DNA of 20,110 nt from a virus. The notes beneath the pieces are model-generated. The model worked only from the letters and a program-made list of their open reading frames with translations. It searched no databases and was not told the origin of the DNA. Both the position numbers and the translations under genes were made by a program. The stretch covers positions 1 to 20,110 of the IMG/VR virus record IMGVR_UViG_3300031857_001761, one strand, 5' to 3'. This document shows, in pieces, positions 9,250 through 20,110 of the stretch. The number at the start of each line of letters is the position of its first letter. Positions within the stretch are counted from its first letter, which is position 1.

Positions 9250-9272
9250 CAGGGGAGAACAGAGGAACCCCC

Positions 9273-9593
9273 ATGATGTCACTGAAGATCGCCAAGGATG
9301 TGCTGGGCCGCATGATTGCCCTGTTCCTGGTTTCGTCGCTCGGTATCATCACCGGTTCGTCCGTCATCAACGCCATCAACCCCGAGCAGTCAATGCCGCT
9401 GTGGTACTCGGCTGCTCTCGCAGGGTTCACCGCCTGTGCGACCGTCATCACGAAACTCGCGCAGGCATCCCTTGATGGTGGTCTTACGAAGGAGGAAGTG
9501 GACGAGGCGTTCGGTGTGAAGTCCGAAACCCGTGCCGCTGTCAACGAGTCGAAGGGCGCAGCCGAGCCTGTAGTTGAAGACCCGGCTCAGTAG
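9273..9593 (+). CDS. putative holin, 106 aa
   Basis: ATG at 9273 (an immediate second ATG at 9276 is equally possible) follows AGAGGA. Two hydrophobic segments are visible, about residues 13-33 (MIALFLVSSLGIITGSSVI) and 44-62 (PLWYSAALAGFTACATVIT). They are followed by a soluble, acidic C-terminal tail with GGLTKEEVDEAFG. This two-helix topology with an LT-rich loop resembles r1t-type holins of actinophages. It opens the lysis region, with the endolysin 1.6 kb downstream. Holins form membrane lesions that release the endolysin. The last 20 bases overlap the next gene. Family assignment is from topology and local pattern only. Confidence 0.65.
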   Translation: MMSLKIAKDVLGRMIALFLVSSLGIITGSSVINAINPEQSMPLWYSAALAGFTACATVITKLAQASLDGGLTKEEVDEAFGVKSETRAAVNESKGAAEPVVEDPAQ

Positions 9594-10608: not shown

Positions 10609-10618
10609 TGTGCCACCC

Positions 10619-10789
10619 ATGAGGAAGTATCTCGGCGCGATCTACGCCCTGCTGATGTGGGCATCAGGCACCGGGTTCATCCTCATCACCCTGTCCGGCG
10701 AGACACTTCAGAAGGCGTTGATGCTGTCCGGGGCGACCCTCGCAATCATGCTGGCAGCTATCGCTCTCGGTATCGGAATGGATGACTAG
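10619..10789 (+). CDS. two-helix small membrane protein, 56 aa
   Basis: ATG at 10619 begins 10 bases after the previous stop and lacks a clear SD, so coupling is likely. The 56-residue product has two hydrophobic helices, about residues 5-24 (GAIYALLMWASGTGFILITL) and 33-53 (LSGATLAIMLAAIALGIGM), joined by a short charged turn (SGETLQKA), and ends MDD. Such hairpin membrane proteins next to endolysins are candidate second holins or antiholins. No residue-level signature settles it. It sits between the surface protein and an acidic soluble protein, two genes upstream of the endolysin. Confidence 0.6.
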   Translation: MRKYLGAIYALLMWASGTGFILITLSGETLQKALMLSGATLAIMLAAIALGIGMDD

Positions 10790-10791
10790 CC

Positions 10792-11166
10792 ATGTTCGAT
10801 TGGATGTCCGACCCGCAACGTGAGGCGTACCGCCGTGCGATGGAGGACTACGACAAGTTCGCGGACATTGTTCACCACTGGAACGACGAGGCCCGACCCG
10901 AACATGACGACATCCAATACAAGGCTGAAACCCTGGAGTTTTGGGATGGGGTGGACATCGGGATGGTGGTCGCCAACACCGGGTATCTCAGCATAGTGTT
11001 GAACAGTCTTGAGGAAGCGTTGGAGACATACGGTTCCTGGGAAGAAATCCCCGACGATTACGACTTTGGGGGCGACGACCGCGAACCGTTTGACTATGAT
11101 GACGGGAACCCTACGGGGTGGATATGCGACAAATGCCAACAGGAGGAAGACGATGCCGGGTCGTAA
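10792..11166 (+). CDS. acidic hypothetical protein with C-terminal CxxC, 124 aa
   Basis: The ATG at 10792 lies two bases after the preceding TAG. The 124-residue protein is strongly acidic. Its N-terminal helix (SDPQREAYRRAMEDYDKFAD) is followed by a central helical part with a repeated LEEALETYG motif. The C-terminal part is an Asp/Glu-rich tail that holds a single WICDKC pair (about residues 110-115), too little for a zinc site unless it dimerises. The end overlaps the endolysin start by 14 bases, and the endolysin SD (AGGAGG) lies inside this gene. I do not recognise a family. Its coupling to the endolysin suggests a shared schedule or a partner role, which is inference. Confidence 0.6.
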   Translation: MFDWMSDPQREAYRRAMEDYDKFADIVHHWNDEARPEHDDIQYKAETLEFWDGVDIGMVVANTGYLSIVLNSLEEALETYGSWEEIPDDYDFGGDDREPFDYDDGNPTGWICDKCQQEEDDAGS

Positions 11167-11668
11167 GTACACAGGTAACAGCGACGGTCTGAGTCGCACC
11201 GGGCTTCGTCTCGGCACGAAGAAGTTCATGGACCTCGCGATCAAGGAGTACGGCCTGACGAACCTGGGTGGGTTTGCGAACCGTTCGATGAACAACCCGA
11301 AGGCGAAGAAGGGCGACCCGAAGTGGCTGTCTGTCCATGCGACGGGGCGGGCCTGCGATCTCGGGTACAAGGACCGCAAGAAGGCGATGGAGATGTGGAA
11401 CAAGATGATGGCCCATACCCGCGAGATGGGCATTGAGGAAGCACACGACTACGCTTTCGATGAGGACAAGACCGACAAGGAGAAGGGCTGGGGTCGCGGC
11501 TATCGGTGCAGTCGCGGCGAGGGCGAAGCAGGCATCAAGGTGTATGACGAGAACGACAATGCTGGTTCGCAGGGCGGACGCTGGTGCCATTGGGAACTTT
11601 CCCCTGCGATGGCTGACGATCCGGGCAAGGTCACTGCCGTGTGGAAAAAGATTCACGGACAGGCATGA
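11153..11668 (+). CDS. M15-type peptidase endolysin, 171 aa
   Basis: ATG at 11153 has a strong SD (AGGAGGAAG, 11141-11149) and is preferred over an in-frame upstream ATG at 11009 that would overlap the previous gene heavily. Residues 60-69 read SVHATGRACD, the SxHxxGxAxD zinc signature of M15 (VanY / D-Ala-D-Ala carboxypeptidase and phage L-alanyl-D-glutamate peptidase) enzymes. The distal motif RWCHWEL (143-149) matches the usual WHWE end, giving H62, D69 and H146 as zinc ligands. There is no separate cell-wall binding domain and no signal peptide, so release needs a holin. It would cut the peptide stems of host peptidoglycan. Confidence 0.8.
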   Translation: MPGRKYTGNSDGLSRTGLRLGTKKFMDLAIKEYGLTNLGGFANRSMNNPKAKKGDPKWLSVHATGRACDLGYKDRKKAMEMWNKMMAHTREMGIEEAHDYAFDEDKTDKEKGWGRGYRCSRGEGEAGIKVYDENDNAGSQGGRWCHWELSPAMADDPGKVTAVWKKIHGQA

Positions 11669-11766
11669 GATATGCGGCCCTGGCAAGCAGTTTTCTTTTT
11701 GGCATCTGCTTTTCTGTATGCTTGTTTTTTTCTCTCGTTTATCTTGAAGTGAAGGACAGACCATGA
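11665..11766 (+). CDS. single-pass membrane micro-protein, 33 aa
   Basis: An ATGA overlap (11665-11668) joins it to the endolysin stop, and its own TGA (11764-11766) overlaps the next ATG (11763), so it fits exactly between two genes in the coupled chain. The product is MRYAAL followed by a Phe/Leu/Cys/Ser-rich helix (about residues 4-27), ending LEVKDRP. Such a short single helix fits a pinholin, antiholin or spanin-like accessory protein. The DNA is much more T-rich than its neighbours. A competing view is that the stretch holds a terminator-like hairpin (AAGCAG 11685-11690 with CTGCTT 11706-11711, T-run at 11725-11731). Both could hold. Confidence 0.55.
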   Translation: MRYAALASSFLFGICFSVCLFFSLVYLEVKDRP

Positions 11767-12023
11767 CTGTTGCACAGTGGATCATCACAGCTGGCGGCGT
11801 GGTCGCAGCCCTCGGCATCATTTGGCGTGGCGTTGTGTATCCGGTCATCAGATGGGGGAAGCGCATCGAGAAGGCCGTGGCGTTTGTTGAGTCAAACATG
11901 GTGAACAACGGTGGCGCATCTCTGCGTGACGCGATTGACCGCATCGAGGCACGTCTCACGGTTGTGGAAAAGAAACCCGAAAGTTCTACGGTTCGTAAGA
12001 AGGCTGCACCGAAAACCAAGTAG
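11763..12023 (+). CDS. membrane protein with coiled-coil tail, 86 aa
   Basis: ATG at 11763 is coupled by ATGA to the micro-ORF and also has a nearby GAAGGA. A hydrophobic N-terminal segment (about residues 4-29, WIITAGGVVAALGIIWRGVV) is followed by RWGKRIEKAVAFVESNM, a helical SLRDAIDRIEARLTVVEKK coiled-coil segment (about 53-71), and a Lys-rich tail. One helix plus a cytoplasmic coiled coil is a layout seen in actinophage lysis-region proteins whose exact function is unknown. It may assist the holin or bind the lysis proteins. The last helix and tail are basic, which could contact peptidoglycan or nucleic acid; I do not assign either. Confidence 0.6.
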   Translation: MTVAQWIITAGGVVAALGIIWRGVVYPVIRWGKRIEKAVAFVESNMVNNGGASLRDAIDRIEARLTVVEKKPESSTVRKKAAPKTK

Positions 12024-12039
12024 TAATCTGACGAGTCCT

Positions 12040-12174
12040 ATGACCCGTCAAGATGTTGAACTGCTCCTGAAATACCTGATGAAAACCCCGGTCCTGCCGA
12101 ACGACCAGGACCAGTTCATTCAGGCGGTCGAACGGCTCGCAGCCTTGCTGAACAAGGGAAAACAGAGGGTGTGA
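12040..12174 (+). CDS. small helical hypothetical protein, 44 aa
   Basis: ATG at 12040 begins 16 bases after the previous stop with only a weak purine stretch (GACGAG). The 44-residue product is predicted to be nearly all helix (MTRQDVELLLKYLMK, then DQDQFIQAVERLAALLNKGK), amphipathic with a basic end. No family is recognised. Its stop codon lies at the centre of a 15-base perfect odd palindrome (12166-12180), so the end of the gene doubles as a possible hairpin or protein-binding site. Coding is supported by overlap-free spacing and typical codon use rather than by homology. Confidence 0.5.
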   Translation: MTRQDVELLLKYLMKTPVLPNDQDQFIQAVERLAALLNKGKQRV

Positions 12175-12180
12175 CACCCT
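12166..12180. promoter_or_regulatory. 15-bp palindrome at gene end
   Basis: AGGGTGTGACACCCT reads the same on both strands apart from its central base and includes the TGA of the preceding gene. As RNA it would form a six-base stem with a three-base loop. As DNA it is shaped like a repressor or RHH-protein operator. No T-run follows, so a simple rho-independent terminator is unlikely. It sits at the border between the lysis region and the early-type genes, 24 bases before the zinc-ribbon mini-gene and about 400 bases before the promoter candidate for the recombination genes. Confidence 0.4.
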
Positions 12181-12198
12181 GTTGCTAGGGTTCCCCGC

Positions 12199-12309
12199 AT
12201 GGATCACAACTGGTTGACCTGCCCCGACTGTGGGAACTCATGGCCCGAGAAAGACTCACGGTACTGCCCTGTGTGCGGCACGAAAGGCGAAGACGATGGA
12301 CGCGAGTGA
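12199..12309 (+). CDS. zinc-ribbon mini-protein, 36 aa
   Basis: ATG at 12199 starts a 36-codon frame too short for most gene finders. The product is MDHNWLTCPDCGNSW (residues 1-15), a 7-residue linker, YCPVCG (22-27) and a short charged tail. C8, C11, C23 and C26 form a textbook four-Cys zinc ribbon with an 11-residue spacer. It overlaps the next gene by 14 bases in a different frame. Possible roles are DNA or RNA binding or a redox-sensing adaptor. The zinc site is the only supported property. Confidence 0.65.
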   Translation: MDHNWLTCPDCGNSWPEKDSRYCPVCGTKGEDDGRE

Positions 12310-12592
12310 GTTCCCTGTTGTCATCGTGAAATGGGCTGACGCTCACGCCTCAGCTGGAGGCTGGTTAGACCTTGACGACTATGAGGACGACGGTGAGTGC
12401 ATCGTCACCACCATCGGGTATCTTGTCCCTGCTGACTCACCGGGCGGCAAGAAGGATCATGTGTCAGTGTGGCAGACCATCACCGATGGTGAGGGTATCC
12501 ACGGGTTCCACATCCCGGTCGGGATGGTCAGAAACATGACGGTGATCCCCGCAGAAAAAACCGTGTCAGACCTTGACACACCCTCTGCGTAG
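12296..12592 (+). CDS. hypothetical phage protein, 98 aa
   Basis: ATG at 12296 is chosen because it lies after the purine-rich GGCGAAGACG and overlaps the preceding gene by only 14 bases. Residues 5-15 (FPVVIVKWADA), then GGWLDLDDY and IVTTIGYLVPADS, and a long GIHGFHIPVGMVRNM segment (about 73-87) form an alternating beta pattern. I know the 'V-x-W-x-DAH ... TxGxL ... IPxGMV' layout from small conserved proteins of diverse phages with no assigned function. No signal peptide or membrane segment is present. It precedes the promoter candidate, and its final codons overlap that promoter's -35 region. Confidence 0.65.
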   Translation: MDASEFPVVIVKWADAHASAGGWLDLDDYEDDGECIVTTIGYLVPADSPGGKKDHVSVWQTITDGEGIHGFHIPVGMVRNMTVIPAEKTVSDLDTPSA

Positions 12593-12602
12593 CCTGTACC
12601 TT
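12573..12602 (+). promoter_or_regulatory. sigma-A-type promoter candidate before the exonuclease
   Basis: A consensus -35 TTGACA (12573-12578) is separated by 18 bases from TACCTT (12597-12602), which fits the actinobacterial TANNNT -10. Transcription would start near 12609, leaving a short leader before ATG 12628. The -35 lies inside the last codons of the preceding gene. The leader carries AAGAAGGGG as SD. Nothing in the sequence shows temporal control, but a host-type promoter would let the recombination genes be made early. I judged this by eye. Confidence 0.5.
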
Positions 12603-12627
12603 ACCGTTCAACAAGAAAGAAGGGGTT

Positions 12628-13584
12628 ATGACACTCAACCGCTACCGCATCCCAAAACCGGAACACGGAGGCCAGGAATGGTTGAACATCCGGTTCCGTG
12701 ACGAACACGGCAACAAGCGTGTCTCAGCATCAGCTGTCGCCGCAATCTACGGCCTGCATCCGTTCGTGCCGATGGACAAGTACGCCGCCGAACTGCTCGG
12801 TGATGTCGCACCGTCCCCGATCCCACCGAACCCAGCGATGGAGCGCGGCAACAGGTTGGAGCCGTTCGTGTTGGAATGGGCATCCGACAAGCTCGGGCTA
12901 CGGTTCGACACCCCCGAGGAAATGTTCGCTGCTGACTCCGAAAACGGGGCGCGAATGGTGTCCACCTTGGACGGGCTGTGGGAACAGGACAGCAAACGCA
13001 AGGTGCTGGAAATCAAAACCACCACCCGCAAATGGGAAGGTCAACTGCCGGACTATTGGCGCATCCAAGGCATCCAGCAAGCCATCTGCGCCGATGTGAA
13101 CCAAATCCTGTGGGCCATCTTCGACCCGTCCATGATTCTCCACATCCATGTTCAGCACATCACACAGGCAGAAATGGATGAGCATGTCGCCGCTGTGGAG
13201 AACTGGTTGAACAGCATTGAGCTGGGGATGACCCCGACCGGGGTGCGCTGGTCGTATGAGACGGTGCAGACCCGCTACAAGGAATCGTTGAACTCAACCA
13301 GCAACATTGATCCTGTCCACAAGGACCTGTTCGACAGGTTGCGGCATGTCCGCAGCGAACTGGAGTCGTACAAGAAACTTGAGGACGATTTGAAGGCAAA
13401 GATTTGTGAGTTGATGGGCCAGTCGGACACGGCTGTGATGAACGGGTACACGGTTGCCACATGGAAAACCCAGGTGCGTGACACGTTCGACAGCAAGGCG
13501 TTCCGTGAGGCGCACCCTGAGTTGGCTCGTCAGTTCACGAAACAAACAACAACCCGCACGTTCCTTTTGAAAGGGGAAAAGTAA
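12628..13584 (+). CDS. YqaJ/lambda-type exonuclease, 318 aa
   Basis: ATG at 12628 follows AAGAAGGGG. The catalytic layout of lambda-exonuclease-like recombinases is complete: SASAVAAIYG (33-42), ERGNRLEPF (72-80) with E78, a LDG with D115, LEIKTTT with E128 and K130, and YWRIQGIQQA (143-152) with its Tyr-Gln-Gln. These correspond to the metal-binding Asp/Glu/Lys residues and the DNA-contact helix of the family. It degrades one strand of double-stranded DNA ends to give 3' overhangs. The C-terminal 100 residues are helical (VRSELESYKKLEDDLKAKI) and may dock the annealing protein encoded immediately downstream (TAATG overlap). Length is usual for the family. Confidence 0.85.
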   Translation: MTLNRYRIPKPEHGGQEWLNIRFRDEHGNKRVSASAVAAIYGLHPFVPMDKYAAELLGDVAPSPIPPNPAMERGNRLEPFVLEWASDKLGLRFDTPEEMFAADSENGARMVSTLDGLWEQDSKRKVLEIKTTTRKWEGQLPDYWRIQGIQQAICADVNQILWAIFDPSMILHIHVQHITQAEMDEHVAAVENWLNSIELGMTPTGVRWSYETVQTRYKESLNSTSNIDPVHKDLFDRLRHVRSELESYKKLEDDLKAKICELMGQSDTAVMNGYTVATWKTQVRDTFDSKAFREAHPELARQFTKQTTTRTFLLKGEK

Positions 13585-14222
13585 TGACAGAGAACACCAA
13601 CCAACTCCGCAAAGTCCTGGTGGACTACGCGGTGCCGGACCCGAAAATTGTCGGCAAGCTCCCCAAGGGTGGAGCAACGCTGGATTTCGTGGGTCACGCG
13701 GACATCACCCGCATCCTCATCGAGATTGACCCGCACTGGCGGCTGGTCCCTATCGCATGGGAGAACGGTCGTCCGGCGGTCAACATCGTGAACGACATGG
13801 CAACCATGTGGTTCGAGATGACACTGCTCGGGCAGGCCCGTCTCGCCATCGGCACCGCAAAGGCGAACAGCATGGACTTGGACAAGGTGCTGTACGGTGA
13901 CGCTCTCCGCAACGGGGCGATGCGTTTCGGTATCGGCCTGTCGCTGTGGACGAAGCAGGAATGGGATGACCTGGATCATCACGCCCCTGCGAAGCCCGCA
14001 CCGAAGCAGACTGGTACGGCTGCGAAGCCGAAGCCTGAGCCTGCATCAAAGCCGACCGCCCCGCTGTCGGATGAGCAGATTGCACAGTTCCGTGCCGCCT
14101 GCGAAGCGAAAGGTTTGGATGCGGACAGCGTTGCCGAAGCGGCAGGTATCGAGCCAGGGGCGGTGTGGATTCAGGCGCATCTGTCTGCTCTGCGGGCCAC
14201 GTTCAAGGAACTGGTGGGCTGA
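13584..14222 (+). CDS. Rad52/Sak-like single-strand annealing protein, 212 aa
   Basis: The start overlaps the exonuclease stop by one base. Residues 28-130 hold the conserved core: PKGGATLDFVGHADITRIL (28-46), DPHWRLVPIAWENGRPAV, MWFEMTLLGQARLAIGTAK and the family hallmark YGDALRNGAMRFGIGLSLW (104-122), close to the Rad52/Sak 'ALKRAAMxFGIG' helix. Residues 135-160 are an Ala/Pro/Lys linker, and the last about 50 form a small helical domain that may bind SSB or the exonuclease. Pairing with the exonuclease upstream matches Red- or Rec-like two-component recombination. The protein would anneal complementary single strands in replication restart or recombination. Confidence 0.75.
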   Translation: MTENTNQLRKVLVDYAVPDPKIVGKLPKGGATLDFVGHADITRILIEIDPHWRLVPIAWENGRPAVNIVNDMATMWFEMTLLGQARLAIGTAKANSMDLDKVLYGDALRNGAMRFGIGLSLWTKQEWDDLDHHAPAKPAPKQTGTAAKPKPEPASKPTAPLSDEQIAQFRAACEAKGLDADSVAEAAGIEPGAVWIQAHLSALRATFKELVG

Positions 14223-14223
14223 C

Positions 14224-14415
14224 ATGGCGAACAAGCGAACTGTTGACCCGACCGCTTCTGAGGCTTCCTCAAGGATTGTCGGTATCCGCATGACGGACAC
14301 CCAGCTGCGACAGATCGAGGAACTGTGTGTGAAGCACGGCACCAAGCGGTCTGTCCTGATCCGTGATTTGATTCGTCACGCCTACAACGAGGCGTTCATG
14401 CCGGAGGCGTTCTGA
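14224..14415 (+). CDS. ribbon-helix-helix protein, 63 aa
   Basis: ATG at 14224 begins one base after the previous stop. Residues 16-24 (SRIVGIRM) give a candidate DNA-binding ribbon strand, followed by TDTQLRQIEELCVKHG (26-41) and TKRSVLIRDLIRHAYNEAF (42-60). This matches the ribbon, helix A and helix B layout of CopG/MetJ/Arc-type regulators, which bind palindromic operators as dimers. The palindromes at 12166-12180 and 15934-15959 are possible targets. The stop overlaps the next ATG (TGATG). Confidence 0.7.
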   Translation: MANKRTVDPTASEASSRIVGIRMTDTQLRQIEELCVKHGTKRSVLIRDLIRHAYNEAFMPEAF

Positions 14416-14609
14416 TGGGTTACATGGAGGACAACGCAAAGAAACTGAACGAGGCGTTGCAGCGTCAGTTCACAAGCGATTTGACGTGGGGGATGACCCG
14501 TGAGATTGCTACCTGGGCAGAGAAGGTTGCTCTGCTGGAGGAACGCATCAGGGAACTGTCAACCGAGGTGACCCGGTTGGCTAACGAACTGGCCCGCAAG
14601 TATGAGTAA
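14415..14609 (+). CDS. coiled-coil hypothetical protein, 64 aa
   Basis: The ATG at 14415 overlaps the preceding TGA. The 64-residue product is largely helical, with a second half in clean heptads: WAEKVALLEERIRELSTEVT (about 35-54), then RLANELARKYE. It is probably a dimeric or trimeric coiled coil. No enzyme motif or membrane segment is present. Its place between the RHH protein and the Hjc-like nuclease suggests an accessory of the recombination genes, but function is unknown. Confidence 0.6.
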   Translation: MGYMEDNAKKLNEALQRQFTSDLTWGMTREIATWAEKVALLEERIRELSTEVTRLANELARKYE

Positions 14610-14639
14610 CGAGTATCCTTGGCTGTGCGGCGGTGCGCG

Positions 14640-14975
14640 GTGAGCAAAGCGAAACAGAAGGGGACTGCCGCTGAGACTGCGGTGGTGAAGTTTCTCCGTG
14701 ACAACGGGTTCCCCCATGCTGAACGGCGGGCGTTGCACGGCACCGTTGACAAGGGTGACATCACGGGTTGCGGGCCGGTCGTGTTTGAGGTGAAGAACCA
14801 CGCCAAGATGGATTTGGCTGGTTGGATCAAAGAACTGGAATCGGAGACTGTGAACGCGAAAGCTGACACGGGGGTGGTTGTCGCCAAGAAGCGTGGCACG
14901 ACGAACCCTGCCGACTGGTACGCGGTCCTGCCGTTTGAGTGGTTCGTGGACTTGCTGAAGGAGGCAGGGTACTGA
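14640..14975 (+). CDS. Hjc-like PD-(D/E)xK nuclease, 111 aa
   Basis: The frame extends upstream to a TTG at 14619, but GTG at 14640 gives the typical MSKAKQKGTAAET start. The nuclease core is visible: AAETAVVKFLRDNGF with E12 (residues 10-24), VDKGDITG with D40, then PVVFEVKNH with E50 and K52. This E...D...ExK order matches Holliday-junction resolvase Hjc and related VRR/HJ nucleases. It would cleave branched recombination intermediates, complementing the exonuclease and annealing protein. A micro-frame of 13 codons (14602-14643) overlaps the GTG and may couple translation. Confidence 0.7.
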   Translation: MSKAKQKGTAAETAVVKFLRDNGFPHAERRALHGTVDKGDITGCGPVVFEVKNHAKMDLAGWIKELESETVNAKADTGVVVAKKRGTTNPADWYAVLPFEWFVDLLKEAGY

Positions 14976-15121
14976 TGGACACCTGCGAATGTGAATACCC
15001 AGGGCTGGCCCGCTGTCGATGCTCAGCCCGATACGACGAACGCTGCGACTACTGTGACTGGCAATGGGACCATGACTGTCCCGGAATAGAAGGGGACGAT
15101 GAGGATGCCGAGGAATCCTGA
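14975..15121 (+). CDS. Cys-rich mini-protein, 48 aa
   Basis: ATG at 14975 overlaps the preceding TGA (TGATG). Seven Cys residues in 48 (C4, C6, C14, C16, C24, C27, C35), with CxC, CxC and CxxC spacings plus His33, suggest at least one and perhaps two zinc sites. The C-terminal tail is very acidic (GDDEDAEES). The last 23 bases overlap the next gene in another frame. It is too small and divergent to assign. Zinc-dependent nucleic-acid or protein contact is the only supported inference. Confidence 0.6.
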   Translation: MDTCECEYPGLARCRCSARYDERCDYCDWQWDHDCPGIEGDDEDAEES

Positions 15122-15452
15122 CAACTGGCGGCACGGAGTCAACCGTTACCGTCAACACAAATGCAGGTGCGACGAGTGTTGCGCCGCATACGCCGAGTAC
15201 CGGTTCAAGCTGAGGAAAAACCCTGAGGGGTCGTTCACGATTGACCCTGAGCCGTTGATCCGGTTCATTGAGAAGATGGAGGCCCCGGTTCCTGCGTCCA
15301 CCCAGCAGACGTTTGCTAGGTGGCGTGAGAAAGGTGTGGACATTTTCGTGGCTGACCGTCATTGCTGTAAGCGTGGGGCGCACCCGTTCGAGGTGTACGG
15401 TTCCGAATGGTTCGAGTTGGAGGCGCACGGTGCAGATCGTGGTGACTCTTGA
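15099..15452 (+). CDS. putative DNA-binding protein with Cys cluster and HTH-like segment
   Basis: The start is either ATG 15099 or ATG 15105; both follow GGGGACGATGAGG-like purines. Residues about 11-35 read WRHGVNRYRQHKCRCDECC, a 'HGxxxxYxxxCRCxxC' module that recurs in actinobacterial and phage proteins and is likely a metal-binding DNA contact. Around residues 72-107, the segment FARWREKGVDIFVADRHCCK and then HPFEVYGSEWFE resembles a divergent helix-turn-helix. No firm family is assigned. The gene lies between Cys-rich and nuclease-like genes; its last 23 bases overlap the next frame. A transcription regulator is the most plausible role. Confidence 0.55.
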   Translation: MRMPRNPDNWRHGVNRYRQHKCRCDECCAAYAEYRFKLRKNPEGSFTIDPEPLIRFIEKMEAPVPASTQQTFARWREKGVDIFVADRHCCKRGAHPFEVYGSEWFELEAHGADRGDS

Positions 15453-15930
15453 CGAGTACGAACTGGCTCACGCGGCGATGGCTGGTTGCCAGCGGCGGAT
15501 AGCGTCCATCATGCGGGGCCGTCCGCAGGTGTACGGTGCCGGTGAACGGAAGAACTACTGGCAGATAGACATTGTTGGGATGATGGCTGAGTATGCGGTG
15601 GCGAAAGCGTTTGACAGGCATTGGCAGCCTGCGACGAATCAACGTCTTGCGGATTTGCCTGGTGATGTGGCGTATTATCAGGTGCGTTCCACGGAGCATC
15701 GTGACGGGCATTTGTTCATACATCCGCAGGACAAGGATGCGCCGTACATTCTCGCTATCGTGGCTGACAGACATATCTTGTTGGCTGGGTGGATCACGAA
15801 GAAGGAGGGTTCGAAGGTGGGTGTGATGAAGTCGCCTGATACTTGGTGGGTGCCGCAGTCGGAGCTGTGGTCGTTTGATGGTTGGCCTGATCCGGTGGTG
15901 TGGTCTGACCAGGTGCGTCCGAAAGGCTAA
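15430..15930 (+). CDS. degenerate PD-(D/E)xK nuclease-like protein, 166 aa
   Basis: The GTG at 15430 begins QIVVTLDEYELAHAAMAG. It is preferred over the frame's upstream extension because that part is basic and lies within the preceding gene. Residues 46-60 (QIDIVGMMAEYAVAK, with E54), a PGD (78-80, D79) and YYQVRSTEHRDGHLFIH (83-99) follow the order of restriction-type nuclease folds, but the usual E-x-K is Q84-V-R86, so catalysis is doubtful. The block VADRHILLAGWITKKEG fits the closing strands of the same family. It may be an inactive DNA-binding relative or a nuclease with altered metal binding. Codons mostly end in G or T. Confidence 0.5.
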   Translation: MQIVVTLDEYELAHAAMAGCQRRIASIMRGRPQVYGAGERKNYWQIDIVGMMAEYAVAKAFDRHWQPATNQRLADLPGDVAYYQVRSTEHRDGHLFIHPQDKDAPYILAIVADRHILLAGWITKKEGSKVGVMKSPDTWWVPQSELWSFDGWPDPVVWSDQVRPKG

Positions 15931-15933
15931 ACT
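15905..15933 (+). promoter_or_regulatory. promoter candidate before the Rpf-like gene
   Basis: CTGACC (15905-15910) as a -35 and TAAACT (15928-15933) as a TANNNT-type -10 are separated by 17 bases. The -35 is a partial match only. Transcription would begin near 15940, inside the inverted repeat at 15934-15959, and run into a leader of about 65 bases before ATG 16005. The gap in the gene chain here (74 bases, one of the largest in the window) supports an independent promoter. Confidence 0.35.
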
Positions 15934-15959
15934 CTCCTAATCCGTTTCACAGTTAGGAG
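15934..15959. promoter_or_regulatory. inverted repeat just upstream of the Rpf-like gene
   Basis: CTCCTAA (15934-15940) and TTAGGAG (15953-15959) form a seven-base perfect inverted repeat around a 12-base loop. The right arm contains an AGGAG Shine-Dalgarno-like sequence four bases before an ATG at 15964 that opens only a two-codon frame. No T-run follows, so it is not a typical terminator. Placed at the predicted transcription start, it could be an operator or a leader hairpin. It is a site seen by eye, with no known match. Confidence 0.4.
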
Positions 15960-16004
15960 TTGTATGGCCTGAATCTTGCCCTGTCCCCCGTCGAAAGGAA
16001 CCCC

Positions 16005-16481
16005 ATGCGTAAAACCGCTGCTGTTCTCATCCTGTCCCTGTCCACCACAATCCTCTCATTGGGGTCTGTAAGCCCCGTAGAGGCGAGCAACACCCCAACC
16101 CCTTCCCACCCCCACTTGGATTGGTCCCGCAAGAAATACGGCGCAATCCTCCCCGATAAGTATTACGATTCGCTGGCTCAGTGCGAAACCGGCGGCAACT
16201 GGAACCACTCCACCCGCAGCTACACAGGCGGCCTCGGCATCCACCGCCAAACCTTCCGCCGCTGGTCCAAATACCAGTCAGCCAAAGGGCTAACCCCCCG
16301 CCAACAGGTCCGGGTCGCTGACGCAATCGCGTTCTCCGGGTACACCACCCGTGACGGCACCCACATTTGGAGAGTCGGACCTTTTGGGTGGGGTTGCGTC
16401 CGAGGATCAGCTCTCCTGAAAGCGTACATCTGCAAATCGAACCACCCGAAAGTGGTCAGATACAGGAAACGTGCCTGCTAA
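16005..16481 (+). CDS. secreted Rpf-like transglycosylase, 158 aa
   Basis: ATG at 16005 has AAAGGA (15994-15999) five bases before it and is preferred to the upstream TTG 15960. Residues 1-27 are a signal peptide (RKTAAV, then a Leu/Ser/Thr core, cleavage near VEA). Residues 53-87 (YYDSLAQCETGGNW, then SYTGGLGIHRQTFRRW) match the resuscitation-promoting factor / transglycosylase-like domain, with E61 as the expected catalytic Glu next to C60. RQQVRVADAIAFSG (99-112) matches the family's downstream helix, and C131 would pair with C60. It would cleave glycan strands outside the membrane, for late lysis, entry or remodelling of the host wall. No cell-wall anchor is visible. Confidence 0.75.
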   Translation: MRKTAAVLILSLSTTILSLGSVSPVEASNTPTPSHPHLDWSRKKYGAILPDKYYDSLAQCETGGNWNHSTRSYTGGLGIHRQTFRRWSKYQSAKGLTPRQQVRVADAIAFSGYTTRDGTHIWRVGPFGWGCVRGSALLKAYICKSNHPKVVRYRKRAC

Positions 16482-16517
16482 GTTTCCCACAGGCGGGGGA
16501 AAACCCTGGGGGCAACC

Positions 16518-16961
16518 ATGCACATCACCTACACCACCACCACAAGGTTTTGGTCCCGCGTAGCGGTCGGCCCACCCGACCACTGCTGGGAATGGCAAGG
16601 CTCCCGCCGAGGCGACAGCTACGGGCAAATCTACATACTCGGAAAACACCGGGCAGCCCACCGAGTCGCGTTCTACCTCACCCACCTCTACTGGCCCCCA
16701 GTCGTCCGACACCAATGCGACAACCGTATCTGCGTCAACCCCAACCACCTAGAAGGCGGCACCCAAACCGACAACATGCGTGATGTGGTTGACCGGGGCC
16801 GACACTGGAACCTCAACAAAACCGCCTGCCCCCACGGACACATCTATGACACACCCAACACCTATACTCGCCCGAACGGATCACGCGAATGTCGAACATG
16901 TCGAAGGGAACGCAAATGGCAAAACAAGAATGGTTCTGCGAACGGTGCCGAACCCGTGTGA
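16518..16961 (+). CDS. HNH endonuclease with C-terminal Cys pair domain, 147 aa
   Basis: ATG at 16518 follows GGGGGCAACC. The HNH core is clear: HCWEWQGSRRGDSYGQI (22-38), HRAAHRVAFYLTH (44-56), VRHQCDNRICVNPNHLEGG (63-81) with H65, N74 and H77, and then TQTDNMRD. C67 and C72 may help a zinc site. A second Cys/His region, CPHGHIY (104-110) to CRTC (125-128), forms a candidate zinc-binding tail. It resembles free-standing homing-type or packaging-associated HNH enzymes, which cut or nick DNA. It lies in the operon, not in an intron; no interrupted gene was seen. Its last 46 bases overlap the next gene. Confidence 0.8.
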   Translation: MHITYTTTTRFWSRVAVGPPDHCWEWQGSRRGDSYGQIYILGKHRAAHRVAFYLTHLYWPPVVRHQCDNRICVNPNHLEGGTQTDNMRDVVDRGRHWNLNKTACPHGHIYDTPNTYTRPNGSRECRTCRRERKWQNKNGSANGAEPV

Positions 16962-17074
16962 CTCTCTACATCAAACCCTCCCAGCCACCCATCCATCGGT
17001 GTGCTAAAAAATCCAACCAAATCTTGCCGCTGACAATGGTGGCACCAACAAAAGGGGAAACCCATGAGCAATAA
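16916..17074 (+). CDS. small Cys-containing hypothetical protein, 52 aa
   Basis: The best start is ATG 16916 (after AAGGGA), rather than ATG 16889. The 52-residue protein starts MAKQEWFCERCRTRV (1-15), giving one CxxC, then has a single HRC at 29-31 (a possible third and fourth ligand with His), and a Pro-rich end. It overlaps SSB by 11 bases. It may be a half zinc finger that pairs with a partner. Nothing supports a named function. Confidence 0.5.
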   Translation: MAKQEWFCERCRTRVTLYIKPSQPPIHRCAKKSNQILPLTMVAPTKGETHEQ

Positions 17075-17480
17075 CATCACATTCACCGGAAAACTCGGGC
17101 AGGAACCCGAACTGCGGTTCACCCCCAGCGGGATGGCAGTCGCAGAGTTCTCCGTTGCTGACACCTACGGCAAGGACGACAAGAAGAAGACCACCTGGCA
17201 CAACTGTGTTGCGTTCGGTCAGCTCGCAGAAAACATCTGTGGTTCGCTCCGCAAGGGCTACACCGTGATCGTCACCGGACGTTACGAACAGGACGAATAC
17301 ACCAAGAAGGACGGCACCAAAGGCAAGACCGTGAAGGTGATCGTCGAGGAATGTGGCCCGTCGCTGCGGTGGGACATCTATGTGAAGGACCAGTCGGAGA
17401 AGGTGATGGCAGAGGTCGGCAAGGTCGGCAGGTCAATGCCTGCACCGTCACCGTTCGAGGACGACGAACAGCCGTTCTGA
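17064..17480 (+). CDS. ssb: single-stranded DNA-binding protein, 138 aa
   Basis: ATG at 17064 follows AAAAGGGGAAA. Residues 1-100 show the OB-fold pattern of bacterial and phage SSB: MSNNITFTGKLGQEPELRFT (1-20), VAEFSVADTYG (26-36), TTWHNCVAFGQLAENI (43-58), GYTVIVTGRYEQDEY (65-79) and KVIVEECGPSLRW. The C-terminus ends FEDDEQPF, close to the DDDIPF tip that recruits partner enzymes. It binds single-stranded DNA during replication and recombination, and likely cooperates with the Rad52/Sak-like annealer encoded about 3 kb upstream. The linker is short for a bacterial SSB. Confidence 0.9.
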   Translation: MSNNITFTGKLGQEPELRFTPSGMAVAEFSVADTYGKDDKKKTTWHNCVAFGQLAENICGSLRKGYTVIVTGRYEQDEYTKKDGTKGKTVKVIVEECGPSLRWDIYVKDQSEKVMAEVGKVGRSMPAPSPFEDDEQPF

Positions 17481-17734
17481 TGCTGAACATGGATTTCGAC
17501 CGGTGGATCAAGGTCGGCTACGACAACGGGTGGTGCGGACCAGCGGTGTGCTACACGCATGACGGTCTACCCACCACAGCAGACGAAGACGAAGAACTGG
17601 CAGAGCTGGACCCGTGTGTTCACATCATCAGACTGTACGAAGACGCCACCGTCAAGGCGGCGGTGGAAGAAAACCATTCGCCGTCCCAATGGCGGGCATC
17701 GAACAGTGGGCTAACCCGTTCCGATGCTCAATGA
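17480..17734 (+). CDS. conserved small actinophage-type protein, 84 aa
   Basis: ATG at 17480 overlaps the SSB TGA by one base. Residues 5-30 hold FDRWIKVGYDNGWCGPAVCY (5-24), then THDGLPTT, followed by DEDEELAELDPCVHIIRLYE and AAVEENHSPSQW. The W-x-K-x-G-Y-D-N-G-W and DPC-x-H-x-x-R-L-Y-E pattern matches small proteins common in actinophage early regions, with no assigned function. Three Cys and several His residues may bind metal. No membrane segment. Overlaps the next gene by 11 bases. Confidence 0.7.
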   Translation: MLNMDFDRWIKVGYDNGWCGPAVCYTHDGLPTTADEDEELAELDPCVHIIRLYEDATVKAAVEENHSPSQWRASNSGLTRSDAQ

Positions 17735-17930
17735 CAGCCGCCCCGATGCTAACCCCCTAGAATGTGACCACTGCGGAACCGTCGAACGCGCCCTAACGCT
17801 ATGGCCCGAACACATCCACCGCACCTGCCCCTGCATGTGCCATGTCCGGCGGAACGAACACAACGCCGAAGCTGAACGCATCCAAGCACGACGACGCGGG
17901 ATCATCACCCCAAGAAAGAAGGCAACGTGA
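17724..17930 (+). CDS. small zinc-finger-like protein, 68 aa
   Basis: ATG at 17724 lies within the end of the preceding gene. Residues 14-17 are CDHC, and CPCMCH lies near 35-40, giving an unusual dense Cys/His cluster with an 18-residue spacer. The C-terminal half is rich in Arg and Lys (RIQARRRGIITPRKK), suggesting nucleic-acid contact. Its stop overlaps the WhiB GTG (GTGA). A regulator or DNA-associated zinc protein encoded with WhiB is plausible; no family assignment is made. Confidence 0.6.
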   Translation: MLNDSRPDANPLECDHCGTVERALTLWPEHIHRTCPCMCHVRRNEHNAEAERIQARRRGIITPRKKAT

Positions 17931-18193
17931 GCCAAGCGTGGCGCGACAAGGCAGCCTGCAAGGGTGTCCCTATCGGGGTGTTCTTCCCGGAGATACCCCA
18001 GGGGGACTCATCGAGCCATTGGTGGCGCAAAGCCCGCACCTACTGCGAAGGTTGCACCGTCAAGGCTGACTGTCTCGCGTTTGTTCTGCCGTTCGAGGCT
18101 GAGGCGGGTCGCCGGAACGGTATGTGGGCCGGTATGACCCCACGCGAACGGGACATTCACACCGCACACCCGCTGACTATCCGGCTGCGATAA
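17927..18193 (+). CDS. WhiB-family regulator, 88 aa
   Basis: The GTG at 17927 is coupled to the preceding stop (GTGA) and follows GAAAGAAGG. The WhiB layout is complete: WRDKAACKG with C11, then YCEGCTVKADCLAF with C40, C43 and C49 (the C-x2-C-x5-C set), then NGMWAGMTPRER (64-75), the turn that follows the Fe-S site, and a basic end. WhiB proteins carry a [4Fe-4S] cluster and act with sigma-A in actinobacteria; they are also found in actinophages. It likely alters host or phage transcription. No WhiB-specific target site was identified. It is the last plus-strand gene. Confidence 0.9.
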   Translation: MSQAWRDKAACKGVPIGVFFPEIPQGDSSSHWWRKARTYCEGCTVKADCLAFVLPFEAEAGRRNGMWAGMTPRERDIHTAHPLTIRLR

Positions 18194-18243
18194 ACGCCCG
18201 CCAGGATCACTCCTGCGCCACGATACCGTGCCGTGCCGTATGC

Positions 18244-18261
18244 AAGGTGCTTAGCCTTTTT
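18244..18261 (+). terminator. weak rho-independent terminator candidate
   Basis: AAGG (18244-18247) and CCTT (18255-18258) can pair around a 7-base loop, with a five-T run at 18257-18261. The stem is short and overlaps the T-run, so strength should be low. It lies about 50 bases after the WhiB stop, where the plus-strand transcript should end. Confidence 0.3.
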
Positions 18262-18294
18262 GTCATGACGTTATTGCCAGCTGACTGACCCCAT

Positions 18295-18341
18295 AAAGGG
18301 AGAACCCCGCCGCACCGGGAAGGGGGAACCAGTGGGCGGGG
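18295..18341 (-). terminator. terminator-like hairpin for the minus-strand genes
   Basis: CCCCGCC (18305-18311) pairs with GGCGGGG (18335-18341) around a 23-base loop. Read on the minus strand, the stem is followed by TTCTCCCTTTAT (18304 down to about 18293), a weak pyrimidine tail. It sits 17 bases beyond the last minus-strand stop. The loop is long and may hold its own pairing. Confidence 0.35.
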
Positions 18342-18357
18342 CCTCGGGGGGAGATTA

Positions 18358-18585
18358 TCACACCCTGTCGGGTGCCGTCTCGATTCTGTATTGGTGCGCG
18401 TAACACATCGTGCAGCTCACGGCTGCATGATCCGCATCGGCATGACTACGAAACCGGGTGGCCCGTTCGGGTTGCCGTACCCACTGCCACACTTCGGTGC
18501 GCGAGTATCGGAACCATGCAACGGAACGCCCGCTGACAGTCTTGGCGATGAGGTAACGGGTGTCACGCTTTCTTTTGCGGATCAC
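18358..18585 (-). CDS. small basic hypothetical protein, 75 aa
   Basis: The GTG at 18585 overlaps the upstream TGA by GTGA. The N-terminus is very basic (MIRKRKRDTRYLI), followed by VSGRSVAWFRYSRTEVWQWV and a conserved-looking ATRFRSHADADHAAVSC (about 42-58). The 'RF-x-SxxDADxA' ending is common in small phage proteins from actinophages. Two Cys occur late (C58, C61). No function is known. It is the last gene of the minus-strand run and is followed by a terminator candidate. Confidence 0.6.
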   Translation of the reverse strand: MIRKRKRDTRYLIAKTVSGRSVAWFRYSRTEVWQWVRQPERATRFRSHADADHAAVSCTMCYAHQYRIETAPDRV

Positions 18586-18845
18586 TTCCTGCGGCGTTCG
18601 AGAGCTTTCACGTTCGGTATCACGAACGCCGCCCCGACTGCCTGCACTATGAGGGCCAACCCGAAATAGTTGTCTGCCAGGGGAACCCCTGCGAACATCA
18701 GTAGGAACCCGAACGCGATACCCCAGCCGTACAAGCGGCGCGGGTGTGGTATGCCTTGCCGGTCCCGCATGGCGGCGGTCCGTTCCGCAAGGGTGCGCGG
18801 TATCGGGGTCCCGTAGGACGGGTGCCAGTCCGGGCGGCGCGTCAT
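18582..18845 (-). CDS. two-helix membrane protein, 87 aa
   Basis: ATG at 18845 overlaps the preceding gene's stop by ATGA. A basic, Pro/Arg-rich N-terminal half (residues 1-38, RRPDWHPSYGTPIPRTLAER) is followed by two hydrophobic helices, about 40-57 (GWGIAFGFLLMFAGVPLA) and 62-80 (GLALIVQAVGAAFVIPNV), then ALERRRK. The basic residues at both ends should face the cytoplasm. Small two-helix proteins of early phage regions often affect host membranes or exclude other phages, but there is no direct evidence here. Confidence 0.65.
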   Translation of the reverse strand: MTRRPDWHPSYGTPIPRTLAERTAAMRDRQGIPHPRRLYGWGIAFGFLLMFAGVPLADNYFGLALIVQAVGAAFVIPNVKALERRRK

Positions 18846-18855
18846 GCCGTCACCC
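18842..18855 (-). repeat. GVTA-type junction repeat, copy 4
   Basis: Core GGTGACGGCATGA with GG before it, joining the 50-residue Cys-rich gene to the 87-residue membrane protein. The recipients of the repeats are otherwise unrelated in sequence. Confidence 0.85.
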
Positions 18856-18994
18856 CTTTGGGTTGGCAGGGCGCACCGTCGAAGCTGTCGGTGCCGTCAC
18901 ATCCGTAGCACCCGCAACAGTAGGTGTCGTATTCTGCACCAACGGGGCGGTGGGTTGCCGTGTCCCCGCAAATGCCGCACGTTTCCGTTGTCAT
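18842..18994 (-). CDS. Cys-rich mini-protein, 50 aa
   Basis: ATG at 18994, 50 residues, ending KGVTA and TGA at 18844-18842. It contains CGICG (residues 6-10), YCCGCYGCDG (25-34) and a late C43, giving seven Cys in 50 residues. The CxxC ... CxxC layout, with an extra Cys pair, resembles a zinc ribbon. Both ends are fused to neighbours by ATGA junctions. It is short and lacks an assigned family, but its Cys pattern, coupling and matching tail (VTA) to neighbouring genes support coding. Confidence 0.6.
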   Translation of the reverse strand: MTTETCGICGDTATHRPVGAEYDTYCCGCYGCDGTDSFDGAPCQPKGVTA

Positions 18995-19003
18995 GCCGTC
19001 ACC
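18991..19003 (-). repeat. GVTA-type junction repeat, copy 3
   Basis: Core GGTGACGGCATGA retained, but the base before it is A, so the upstream gene ends EVTA in place of GVTA. It joins the 55-residue gene to the 50-residue Cys-rich gene. Confidence 0.85.
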
Positions 19004-19158
19004 TCATCCGCCACTGCCGCCATGTCGCTCGGGTCAATACGGTACTCTCCCGCGTTGATCGCCGCCGTTATTTGTTCGGCTGCCACATTCTCCGCATCCC
19101 ATTCGTCCGCGGCCTCACATTCCCACGTGATGGAGAACGTCACACGGTAGTTTCTCAT
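18991..19158 (-). CDS. YRVT-type small protein, 55 aa
   Basis: ATG at 19158, MRNYRVTFSITWECEAADEW (residues 1-20), then an acidic helical stretch and ending DEVTA. The first eight residues and the W-D at about 20 match the next gene (MTTYRVTLVIE...WDWDELVA), which shows that the two are paralogues. One beta strand then a helix is a simple alpha/beta look. It has one Cys only. Similar 'M-x-x-YRVT' mini-proteins occur in actinophage early regions from memory; function unknown. Coupled to both neighbours by ATGA. Confidence 0.65.
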   Translation of the reverse strand: MRNYRVTFSITWECEAADEWDAENVAAEQITAAINAGEYRIDPSDMAAVADEVTA

Positions 19159-19168
19159 GCCGTCACCC
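19155..19168 (-). repeat. GVTA-type junction repeat, copy 2
   Basis: Same core GGTGACGGCATGA on the minus strand, joining the 49- and 55-residue YRVT-type genes. The two bases before the core (GG) also match copies at 19301 and 18842. Confidence 0.85.
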
Positions 19169-19304
19169 CGCTACTGTCAGTAGTTTTTTCGATCCGTACT
19201 TCCAGCACGTTTTCGTTTTCCTCGCTTGCTACAAGCTCGTCCCAGTCCCACTTGGCGGGGTTGTACGGTGTCTCAATTACTAGCGTGACACGGTAGGTTG
19301 TCAT
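19155..19304 (-). CDS. YRVT-type small protein, paralogue, 49 aa
   Basis: ATG at 19304, 49 residues: MTTYRVTLVIETPYNPAKWD (1-20), then WDELVASEENENVLEVRIEK (about 21-40) and the ending TTDSSGVTA. The strand-helix-strand pattern is clean (YRVTLVIE; WDELVASEE; VLEVRIEK). It shares its start with the 55-residue neighbour and its DSSGVTA end with the 67-residue neighbour, whose end is DDSGVTA. It is part of the coupled chain, with the repeated ribosome-binding junction at each end. Function is unknown. Confidence 0.65.
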   Translation of the reverse strand: MTTYRVTLVIETPYNPAKWDWDELVASEENENVLEVRIEKTTDSSGVTA

Positions 19305-19314
19305 GCCGTCACCC
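19301..19314 (-). repeat. GVTA-type junction repeat, copy 1
   Basis: Read on the minus strand, GGGGTGACGGCATGA encodes GVTA plus stop while supplying a G-rich ribosome-binding sequence and the ATG of the next gene. The core GGTGACGGCATGA is shared by four junctions: here, 19155-19168, 18991-19003 and 18842-18855. Confidence 0.85.
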
Positions 19315-19504
19315 CACTGTCGTCACGGTACGAAACAGTCAGCTCCCGCTGCCGGAACCCCAGCTGCTCCGCCTCCGGGTCTAATTCGTAATACCCGGTC
19401 ATGTCCATTTCCCGGTGATCCACCCAGTAGTCCGGCACCGCCACCACTATCGTGATCTCGAACACCCGTACATCGACGGGCGGCCCTTGCTTATTGTCTT
19501 TCAT
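19301..19504 (-). CDS. small acidic beta-rich protein, 67 aa
   Basis: ATG at 19504 shares a base with the preceding TAA (TAATG), with AAAGGGG upstream. The product has two strands, VRVFEITIVVAVPDYWV (residues 12-28) and RQRELTVSYRDDSGVTA (51-67), separated by an acidic turn with DMTGYYELDPEAEQLGF. Its EITIVVAVP strand looks like a longer relative of the YRVT family. The ending DDSGVTA also serves as the ribosome-binding site of the next gene. Function is unknown. Confidence 0.65.
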   Translation of the reverse strand: MKDNKQGPPVDVRVFEITIVVAVPDYWVDHREMDMTGYYELDPEAEQLGFRQRELTVSYRDDSGVTA

Positions 19505-19731
19505 TAGTTGCCCCTTTCAGTGGCGTTACCGAACGGGTGCGCCCCGTCCGTGTCTGTTTCTTCCCGTGGGTGCGGGTCGATCATTGCGGCGACATAGCCA
19601 AGAGTCCACGCGATACCGTCGAACACGGCCCGCGCGTCATCCGGCAACGCTGCCATGATGCGGGTGTCTGCCAGCTCGCGGGCAGCGTTGTCGATGATCC
19701 GCCACGCCCGCACCAATTCGTCGGCGGTCAT
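19504..19731 (-). CDS. helical hypothetical protein, 75 aa
   Basis: ATG at 19731 overlaps the preceding TGA. The product is mainly helical: TADELVRAWRIIDNAARELA (2-21), DDARAVFDGIAWTLGYVAAM (31-50), then an acidic, polar tail (EETDTDGAHPFGNATERGN). No metal motif, signal or membrane segment of full length is present. Its end overlaps the next gene by one base, and its start carries the second type of repeated junction. No family is recognised. Confidence 0.6.
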   Translation of the reverse strand: MTADELVRAWRIIDNAARELADTRIMAALPDDARAVFDGIAWTLGYVAAMIDPHPREETDTDGAHPFGNATERGN

Positions 19732-19745
19732 GCCTGGCCCCCGTT
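19728..19745 (-). repeat. 18-base junction repeat, copy 2
   Basis: Identical to the copy at 19907-19924 over all 18 bases. It joins the 60-residue gene to the 75-residue gene on the minus strand. Synonymous positions inside the shared codons match too, which points to common descent or exchange and not only to shared need for a ribosome-binding site. Confidence 0.85.
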
Positions 19746-19910
19746 GATTATTGCCATCAGTGGGTAAGCGTCGAACGCATAGATACGGCCCGGTAGAGCT
19801 TGCTCGATGTCGCGTTCCATGTCTGCTGGGTCCGGTGCGTTACCGTCACTGTCGGCGGCGGGATAGTCCACCGTGAGAACTATCCGATAACGGATAGTGT
19901 CGCCGTTCAT
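19728..19910 (-). CDS. small alpha/beta protein, 60 aa
   Basis: The ATG at 19910, inside an ATGA, is preferred over an in-frame upstream start. The product begins MNGDTIRYRIVLTVDYPAAD (1-20), with a strand resembling the YRVT family (IRYRIVLTV), then ADMERDIEQALPGRIYAFDA (34-53) and the ending INGGQA. The tail NGGQA is identical to that of the next gene upstream, and both are coded by the same 18 bases. Function is unknown. Confidence 0.65.
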   Translation of the reverse strand: MNGDTIRYRIVLTVDYPAADSDGNAPDPADMERDIEQALPGRIYAFDAYPLMAIINGGQA

Positions 19911-19924
19911 GCCTGGCCCCCGTT
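19907..19924 (-). repeat. 18-base junction repeat, copy 1
   Basis: TCATGCCTGGCCCCCGTT on the plus strand; read on the minus strand it encodes NGGQA and the stop of one gene, a GGGGG ribosome-binding stretch and the ATG of the next. An identical copy lies at 19728-19745. Confidence 0.85.
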
Positions 19925-20110
19925 CCCACACTGAACGCACGTCTCAACGTCCGCGCCGCTAGCTATGTCGTCCCGCCATTCGAGCCAGTCCCCAAGATCA
20001 GTGGAACAGTCCCCGCACACTGGCAACCCGCCGCACCCGGCGCACACTAGGAACGGGGCGACAGTCACGCCGCCAGTCTCGCCGTGACGGTACAGGGCAT
20101 CGACGGTAGC
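19907..20110 (-). CDS. zinc-ribbon-like protein, partial, at least 67 aa
   Basis: The minus-strand frame is open to the window edge, so the start is missing. Visible residues include PFLVCAGCGGLPVCGDC (with CxxC twice), then a helix DLGDWLEWRDDIA and DVETCVQCGNGGQA at the end. Six Cys in CxxC pairs fit a rubredoxin-like or double zinc-ribbon protein. The end overlaps the next gene by ATGA. Its full length and start lie beyond 20110. Function unknown. Confidence 0.55.
   Translation of the reverse strand, partial: ATVDALYRHGETGGVTVAPFLVCAGCGGLPVCGDCSTDLGDWLEWRDDIASGADVETCVQCGNGGQA

Follow-up and report, generated by a model that had tools for sequence, protein, structure and literature searches.

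Mosaicism of phage genomes at gene edges poses an old question, whether genes are exchanged through homology at boundary sequences or are joined at random and then sorted by selection. The locus described here poses it for a chain of very small genes, several of them unrelated, which end and begin in the same few short sequences. The window, by which we mean the whole stretch of DNA analysed, was a complete linear IMG/VR record of 20,110 b. Its plus strand carried structural genes followed by a recombination module, and the chain of very small genes lay on the minus strand at the right end, in the order a3, a4, B, C, D, E, F, G. The genes encoded 49 to 87 aa (a3 is cut by the window end), and the stop codon of each overlapped the start codon of the next, the type I and type II junctions defined below being 4-nt overlaps. 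The genes of the array were as follows.

19907..20110, minus strand: gene a3, Cys-rich, truncated by the window end; complete copy at L209:903-1136; missing from the close relatives L210 and L212
19728..19910, minus strand: gene a4, 60 aa; absent from the close relatives L210-L213
19504..19731, minus strand: gene B, 75 aa; anchor gene common to all close relatives
19301..19504, minus strand: gene C, 67 aa; absent from L210-L213
19155..19304, minus strand: gene D, 49 aa, YRVT type; relative in L002 at 54% identity
18991..19158, minus strand: gene E, 55 aa, YRVT type; likely paralogue of D
18842..18994, minus strand: gene F, 50 aa, Cys-rich; absent from L210-L213
18582..18845, minus strand: gene G, 87 aa, probable membrane protein; found in all close relatives

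A contig of the same virus, L209/L001, was 100% identical to window 9158-20110 (10,953 b) and extended the array by 932 b. The nucleotide search of the window gave no match to named phages, protein searches with genes D and G gave no matches, and comparison of the array proteins with Pfam and PHROGs gave no convincing family; a match of gene E to FlgM (0.0027) lay below the FlgM cut-off and was set aside. Convergent with the array was a gene for a WhiB-like regulator (window 17927-18193; PF02467, E 9e-13), which agrees with an actinobacterial host. A related phage segment, with a single-strand DNA-binding protein (SSB) 59% identical, was carried by L239 (CAIVDG010000222.1), a MAG contig from Lake Erken labelled Acidimicrobiaceae, and this contig gives a weak hint that the hosts of this phage group are Acidimicrobiia. 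On the plus strand, three genes at window 2097, 2648 and 3410 started with CCTGATGGGT after a TGATG overlap, and they look like paralogous structural genes with common starts.

Three types of block were found at the junctions of the array.

18842..18854, minus strand: type I block GGTGACGGCATGA, F end/G start, exact copy
18991..19003, minus strand: type I block GGTGACGGCATGA, E end/F start, exact copy
19155..19167, minus strand: type I block GGTGACGGCATGA, D end/E start, exact copy
19301..19313, minus strand: type I block GGTGACGGCATGA, C end/D start, exact copy
19501..19518, minus strand: type III block GAAAGGGGCAACTAATGA, B end/C start, TAATG overlap at 19504
19728..19745, minus strand: type II block AACGGGGGCCAGGCATGA, a4 end/B start, exact copy
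19907..19924, minus strand: type II block AACGGGGGCCAGGCATGA, a3 end/a4 start, exact copy

In each block the SD lay inside the upstream gene, with stop and start overlapping, which is the anatomy of translationally coupled genes, and the conserved bases included the spacer between the SD and the ATG. The encoded tails were VTA before the stop for type I, NGGQA before the stop for type II, and ERGN for type III, and the block sequences stood at the starts of unrelated genes in one orientation. In the window, the exact type I and type II sequences were found at coding overlaps only. GGTGACGGCATGA occupied four successive stop/start junctions and had no other exact copy; with up to 2 mismatches it gave 8 matches against 0.84 expected, and 8 was reached in 0/100 dinucleotide shuffles. 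AACGGGGGCCAGGCATGA was present in two exact copies, compared with 0.07 expected in dinucleotide shuffles even at 3 mismatches. The L209/L001 extension added two junctions, GGAGTGACGGCATGA (type I) and AACGGGGGCTGGGCATGA (near type II), and the remaining overlap junctions of the window bore no resemblance to the blocks. A sequence-only reading of this DNA had listed six ATGA overlaps with tails VTA or NGGQA, four with one common sequence and two with a common 18-base block, all of which were recovered as exact copies; its statement that only two sequences are used was wrong, since the interval has seven junctions and that between B and C, at 19504, is the third type.

Relatives were gathered by a search with the SSB protein, which gave 80 loci; events were inferred from metagenome contigs, and differences were scored without a direction of gain or loss. 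Two close lineages, 92-96% identical to the window, diverged from it mainly within the array. Identity to the window was 94-96% outside the variable genes for L211/L213 (97 b at 100%) and 92-95% for L210/L212. In L210/L212 the type III block joined B straight to G, and C-F were missing, as were a3 and a4. In L211/L213 four other genes, b4-b7, stood between B and G with blocks of types III and I at their junctions, and another gene, b3, lay between type II blocks in the upstream part of the array. The presence of a3 and a4 (this phage) and of b3 (L213) between type II blocks varied among these lineages. The match to the window broke off at two positions: 18856, which is the outer edge of the type I block preceding G, and 19745, which is that of the type II block preceding B. 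Each arrangement was recovered from two metagenomes (L211/L213 99.96% identical, L210/L212 99.0%), which speaks against assembly error. The sequence-only reading had proposed an alignment of related phages, in which shuffled, missing or extra genes bounded by the blocks would speak for it, and the alignment mostly turned out in its favour, with genes missing, or swapped for others, between blocks. Nor was gene order fixed with blocks drifting like the gene bodies, since blocks II and III were identical in the three lineages and the bodies of B and G there differed by 5-9%.

In two relatives, type II hammerhead ribozymes (Rfam RF02276) were also seen between genes on the array strand, at L212:9905-9972 (minus strand, 49.5 bits) and L002:6146-6210 (plus strand, 43.5 bits). 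Short tRNA-like elements lay between array operons (L212 ~9382-9430, L213 ~3637-3685, L230 ~9926-9977, L182 reverse complement 3340-3388 and L239 ~8481-8530), with an acceptor stem and a T arm carrying a GTTCGAT or TGCAAGT loop and no anticodon arm; four of the five folded as a closing stem plus a T-arm hairpin, and ARAGORN called no tRNA.

The tails of the joined genes bear on how the blocks came to be alike. Across their junctions, B in two lineages had 28 nt of its tail, TAACGCCACTGAAAGGGGCAACTAATGA, in common with the unrelated gene b4 (type III), and a stretch of 23 nt, ATCGGAACGGGGGCCAGGCATGA, was common to the tails of the unrelated genes b3 and c2 (type II). The last codons of c2 were unlike those of its own orthologue b2 and the same as those of b3, the gene ahead of B in the other lineage. 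Ribosome binding does not extend as far as 24 nt upstream, and the 28-nt and 23-nt tails thus far exceed what it needs, as recombinant tails would. Judged from these sequences, the type II and type III tails point to copying rather than convergence. The common stretch of type I was only 12-16 nt, unless the next gene was orthologous, and the copying reading is therefore confined to types II and III.

When all the loci gathered were surveyed for clean, gene-sized insertions or deletions between related contigs, 86 distinct indels were obtained, and these were compared with a null of the same sequences and spacings. Direct repeats at the break points averaged 5.74 nt against 2.49 nt in the null; repeats of at least 8 nt were found at 18 indels (0.12 expected) and of at least 12 nt at 5 (0.02 expected), the repeats of the other 68 being shorter than 8 nt, and 35 repeats contained ATG or CAT where 2.1 were expected. 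Three of the five longest repeats were junction blocks. When up to 20 nt was allowed between the flanks, the events numbered 132, with the same 18 and 5 long repeats, and the mean fell from 5.7 to 4.8 nt. The blocks showed no special role over other gene edges in the change of neighbours: partners changed in 32/46 upstream families at non-block junctions and in 6/8 at blocks, in a control that is noisy owing to mechanical ORF calls, possible false genes and the small number of blocks. Moreover, in L230 and L129, contigs that matched at 98% through most of what was compared, the arrays carried different genes at gene edges where no block was repeated. The notion that partners change only at blocks was ruled out by the non-block partner changes in the same region. 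The idea of a modular array with gain, loss and shuffling of genes at the blocks was thus upheld in one part, since genes between B and G were missing (L210, L212) or replaced (L211, L213) with the breaks at block edges, but not in another, since non-block junctions changed partners equally often. As far as these comparisons of sequence go, genes in this region are commonly joined at their starts through short homology, of which the blocks provide the longest and most evident case and not the sole route.

The distant relatives (SSB 57-70% identical) had an array at the same place, with a different repeated block, CTTAAGTCATGA. Its junction had the form [GT/GA/GG]CTTAAG[AT]CATGA and encoded tails like GLKS and GLKT; the conserved bases lay in the spacer and not in the SD, and up to 5 identical copies of CTTAAG[AT]CATGA plus 2 variants were present in one locus. 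The gene after a given tail varied between genomes, and copies of the CTTAAG block, of 18 nt and 12 nt, flanked the indels that separate L180 from L172 (397 b) and L172 from L174 (194 b). The window lineage had no CTTAAG. In L182, L172, L138, L132 and L169 this hexamer was six- to nine-fold over-represented (13-26 copies against 2-3 expected per 11-12 kb); in the distant relatives its copies stood not only at gene junctions but within genes as well, and on the opposite strand, and in gene orientation they often read CTTAAGACAGG. A comparable difference was seen in a pair unrelated to the window, L004 and L054, which were 95% identical and differed by one complete gene of 158 b (53 aa). The extra gene in L004 was flanked by two direct copies of AGGCGGTGACGGCATGA (17 nt, the type I block included), of which L054 had one copy.

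We consider that the blocks are probably stop/start coupling sequences which double as short boundary homologies for gene exchange. With the last codons and stop of one gene overlapping the SD, spacer and ATG of the next, the tiny genes would be translated as a coupled chain, as their anatomy suggests. Unrelated genes have the same block at their ends and starts, so that crossing over between two copies of it would move whole genes, which could be removed, added or swapped with a working junction kept. An exchange within a block would preserve stop, SD and start, so that survivors would keep the block and it could spread through the array without selection for exchange as such. Over time the block types would come to be spread through the array, and relatives would differ by whole genes at block edges. 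Observed directly were the repeated blocks, the gene-content differences at their edges and the tails common to unrelated genes; on this reading the blocks, and not later selection, would set the break points. A plausible engine of the exchange, suggested by gene content, would be the enzymes of the recombination module.

12628..13584, plus strand: RecE-like exonuclease (phrog_434, E 4.8e-59), candidate recombination engine
13584..14222, plus strand: single-strand annealing protein (phrog_3290, E 2.8e-44)
14619..14975, plus strand: RusA-like Holliday junction resolvase (phrog_244, E 6.5e-29)
17064..17480, plus strand: SSB

Phage Rad52-like recombinases have a relaxed fidelity, and the minimum for Red-beta is quoted as ~30 bp (PMC3945230). 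The blocks, at 12-28 nt, are shorter than this, so exchanges through them would be infrequent, unless a different process is at work, for example replication slippage.

The alternative that survives best is convergence with selection, in which GC-rich phages favour a few stop/start sequences with both a good SD and an ATGA overlap, which would make identical letters recur, illegitimate recombination occurs anywhere, and only exchanges at gene edges survive, the breaks then lying on junctions that did not cause them. It was weighed against a control set of 119 unrelated GC-rich viral contigs chosen for one type I copy (885 further overlap junctions in 1.03 Mb). In these, GTGACGGCATGA occurred in two or three copies in 8 contigs, at gene ends of unrelated phages, and the CGGC spacer was present in 8/20 GGTGA-type overlaps with the selecting copies left out. 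The class to which G001 belongs (G001 is a MAG labelled Acidimicrobiaceae and includes a related phage contig) was represented by 80 genomes, in which the type I motif had 38 copies (~0.2 per Mb) against 1 for the reversed control. GGTGACGGC is a favoured junction in its own right among GC-rich phage contigs, and type I, to judge from where its sequence recurs, appears to be partly a convergent coupling signal. Its recurrence in unrelated phages excludes type I as a private marker of the array. These recurrences, together with partner changes that are as common at non-block junctions and with indels that mostly have short repeats, favour convergence. As to chance or codon bias, a 9-mer was repeated upstream of ATG in only 2 of the 119 control contigs with GTGACGGC set aside as the selecting sequence, and 116 had no such repeat; when nine junctions were drawn from the control pool, three proved alike roughly once per 9,000 draws and four in 0/200,000.

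Evidence against convergence came from the distribution of the blocks among relatives. Type I was found in 0/261 ATGA overlaps of the distant relatives, and the CTTAAG block is conserved in the spacer rather than in the SD. The type II 18-mer was nearly confined to the window lineage: among 2.9 million viral contigs it was present in 6, of which 5 were this virus and its close relatives and 1 was L208, a match that is probably due to chance, since by our own estimate a database of such size would give one. The sequence-only reading had set its cassette idea against blocks recurring at many unrelated gene ends by codon bias; type I does recur at gene ends of unrelated phages, as GGTGACGGCATGA and the 8/20 share of its spacer indicate, but the type II 18-mer is private bar that one match. 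The 28-nt and 23-nt sequences common to unrelated genes, and the long break-point repeats, which are far over the null, also tell against convergence, and as a full account of the locus we regard it as possible but rather doubtful.

For type III, GGAACTAACGC(T/A/C)xx(T/C)GAAAGGGGCAACTAATGA preceded a conserved 92-aa gene in L216, L217, L219, L221-L224, L226, L227 and L231, contigs that are apparently unrelated to the window; between L216 and the b4 tail, 30/40 upstream bases matched. The privacy of type III is weakened by this very similar sequence at a gene start of unrelated, L216-like contigs.

The blocks could also be binding or processing sites for a phage protein or RNA, conserved for such a function, as is the case for the stoperators of cluster A mycobacteriophages, 13-bp repeats at gene boundaries in one orientation that bind the repressor. 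Their fixed orientation and the single lineage-specific sequence of each clade agree with this, as does the strong over-representation of CTTAAG in the distant clade, outside junctions too (20-26 copies per 12 kb, with about 3 expected). The stoperators resemble the blocks as one-orientation repeats at gene boundaries, but they are repressor-binding sites with another consensus, GGTGGMTGTCAAG; in the window this consensus had 3 matches at 2 mismatches against 1.3 expected, none of them in the array. The start-associated sequences (SAS) of cluster K mycobacteriophages are a 13-bp repeat, GGGATAGGAGCCC, whose copies, all in one orientation, lie where unrelated non-structural genes start, and their authors suggest that they may be a recombination target (PMC3203893). 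In lying at start codons of unrelated genes in one orientation they are like the blocks, but they are mostly in intergenic gaps of more than 50 bp, whereas the blocks are in stop/start overlaps, and the window had no match to the SAS consensus at up to 2 mismatches. The confinement of blocks I and II in the window to coding overlaps, the coexistence of three types in one array and the absence of CTTAAG from the window lineage also stand against binding or processing sites, which we hold to be unlikely. Tandem duplication of a gene and the junction attached to it, after which the gene bodies diverged, fits D and E, which look like paralogues in sequence (a 42-nt stretch across their starts alike at 83%, and the YRVT motif in both) and may thus account for part of the block repetition, but identical blocks join genes with no common body (a1, F, G, B and b4-b7 lack such a relation), so that it is excluded as the whole explanation and is very improbable as the main one; the statement of the sequence-only reading that the joined genes are partly unrelated holds for most of them, though not for this pair.

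The preferred reading, coupling sequences that double as exchange homologies, is closest to an older idea. Conserved boundary or linker sequences in phage mosaicism were described by Susskind & Botstein 1978 and by Clark et al. 2001 for HK620, according to the summaries in PMC3233612 and PMC3029335, and later authors and reviews found them absent at most mosaic joints (PMC3233612, PMC3029335). As in that idea, a short sequence was common here to the boundaries of otherwise different genes and genome discontinuities fell on it, though other discontinuities lay where there was no block. The difference is that here the boundary itself is coding (C-terminus, stop, ribosome-binding site and start) and is repeated within one array, so that the array genes could in principle be joined in many orders. 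In the cluster I mycobacteriophages, genes 67/68 of Island3 compared with Brujita have ~50 bp of common C-terminal sequence, which was read as recombination between copies (PMC3029335). There too a gene of one phage is absent in its relative, but that case is one event at one longer homology, whereas several short block types are spread across the array here. What we judge to be new relative to the boundary-sequence idea is a boundary that is coding, repeated in one array and of several types, with gene gain or loss between close relatives. More tentatively, the VTA, NGGQA and ERGN tails of the window lineage and the GLKS/GLKT tails of the distant clade may be lineage-specific in-frame junctions that make accessory genes interchangeable. 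They would then form a system of gene cassettes that has no dedicated integrase and works through phage annealing recombination, the tails being the ribosome-binding site of the next gene read through.

A region with a visible, repeated boundary sequence of several types, and with whole-gene differences between close relatives, allows the two models of mosaicism to be tested against each other. It also offers a simple reason for C-terminal tails common to unrelated tiny phage proteins, namely that the ribosome-binding site of the next gene is read in frame, and this explanation matters for annotation and for false calls of homology.
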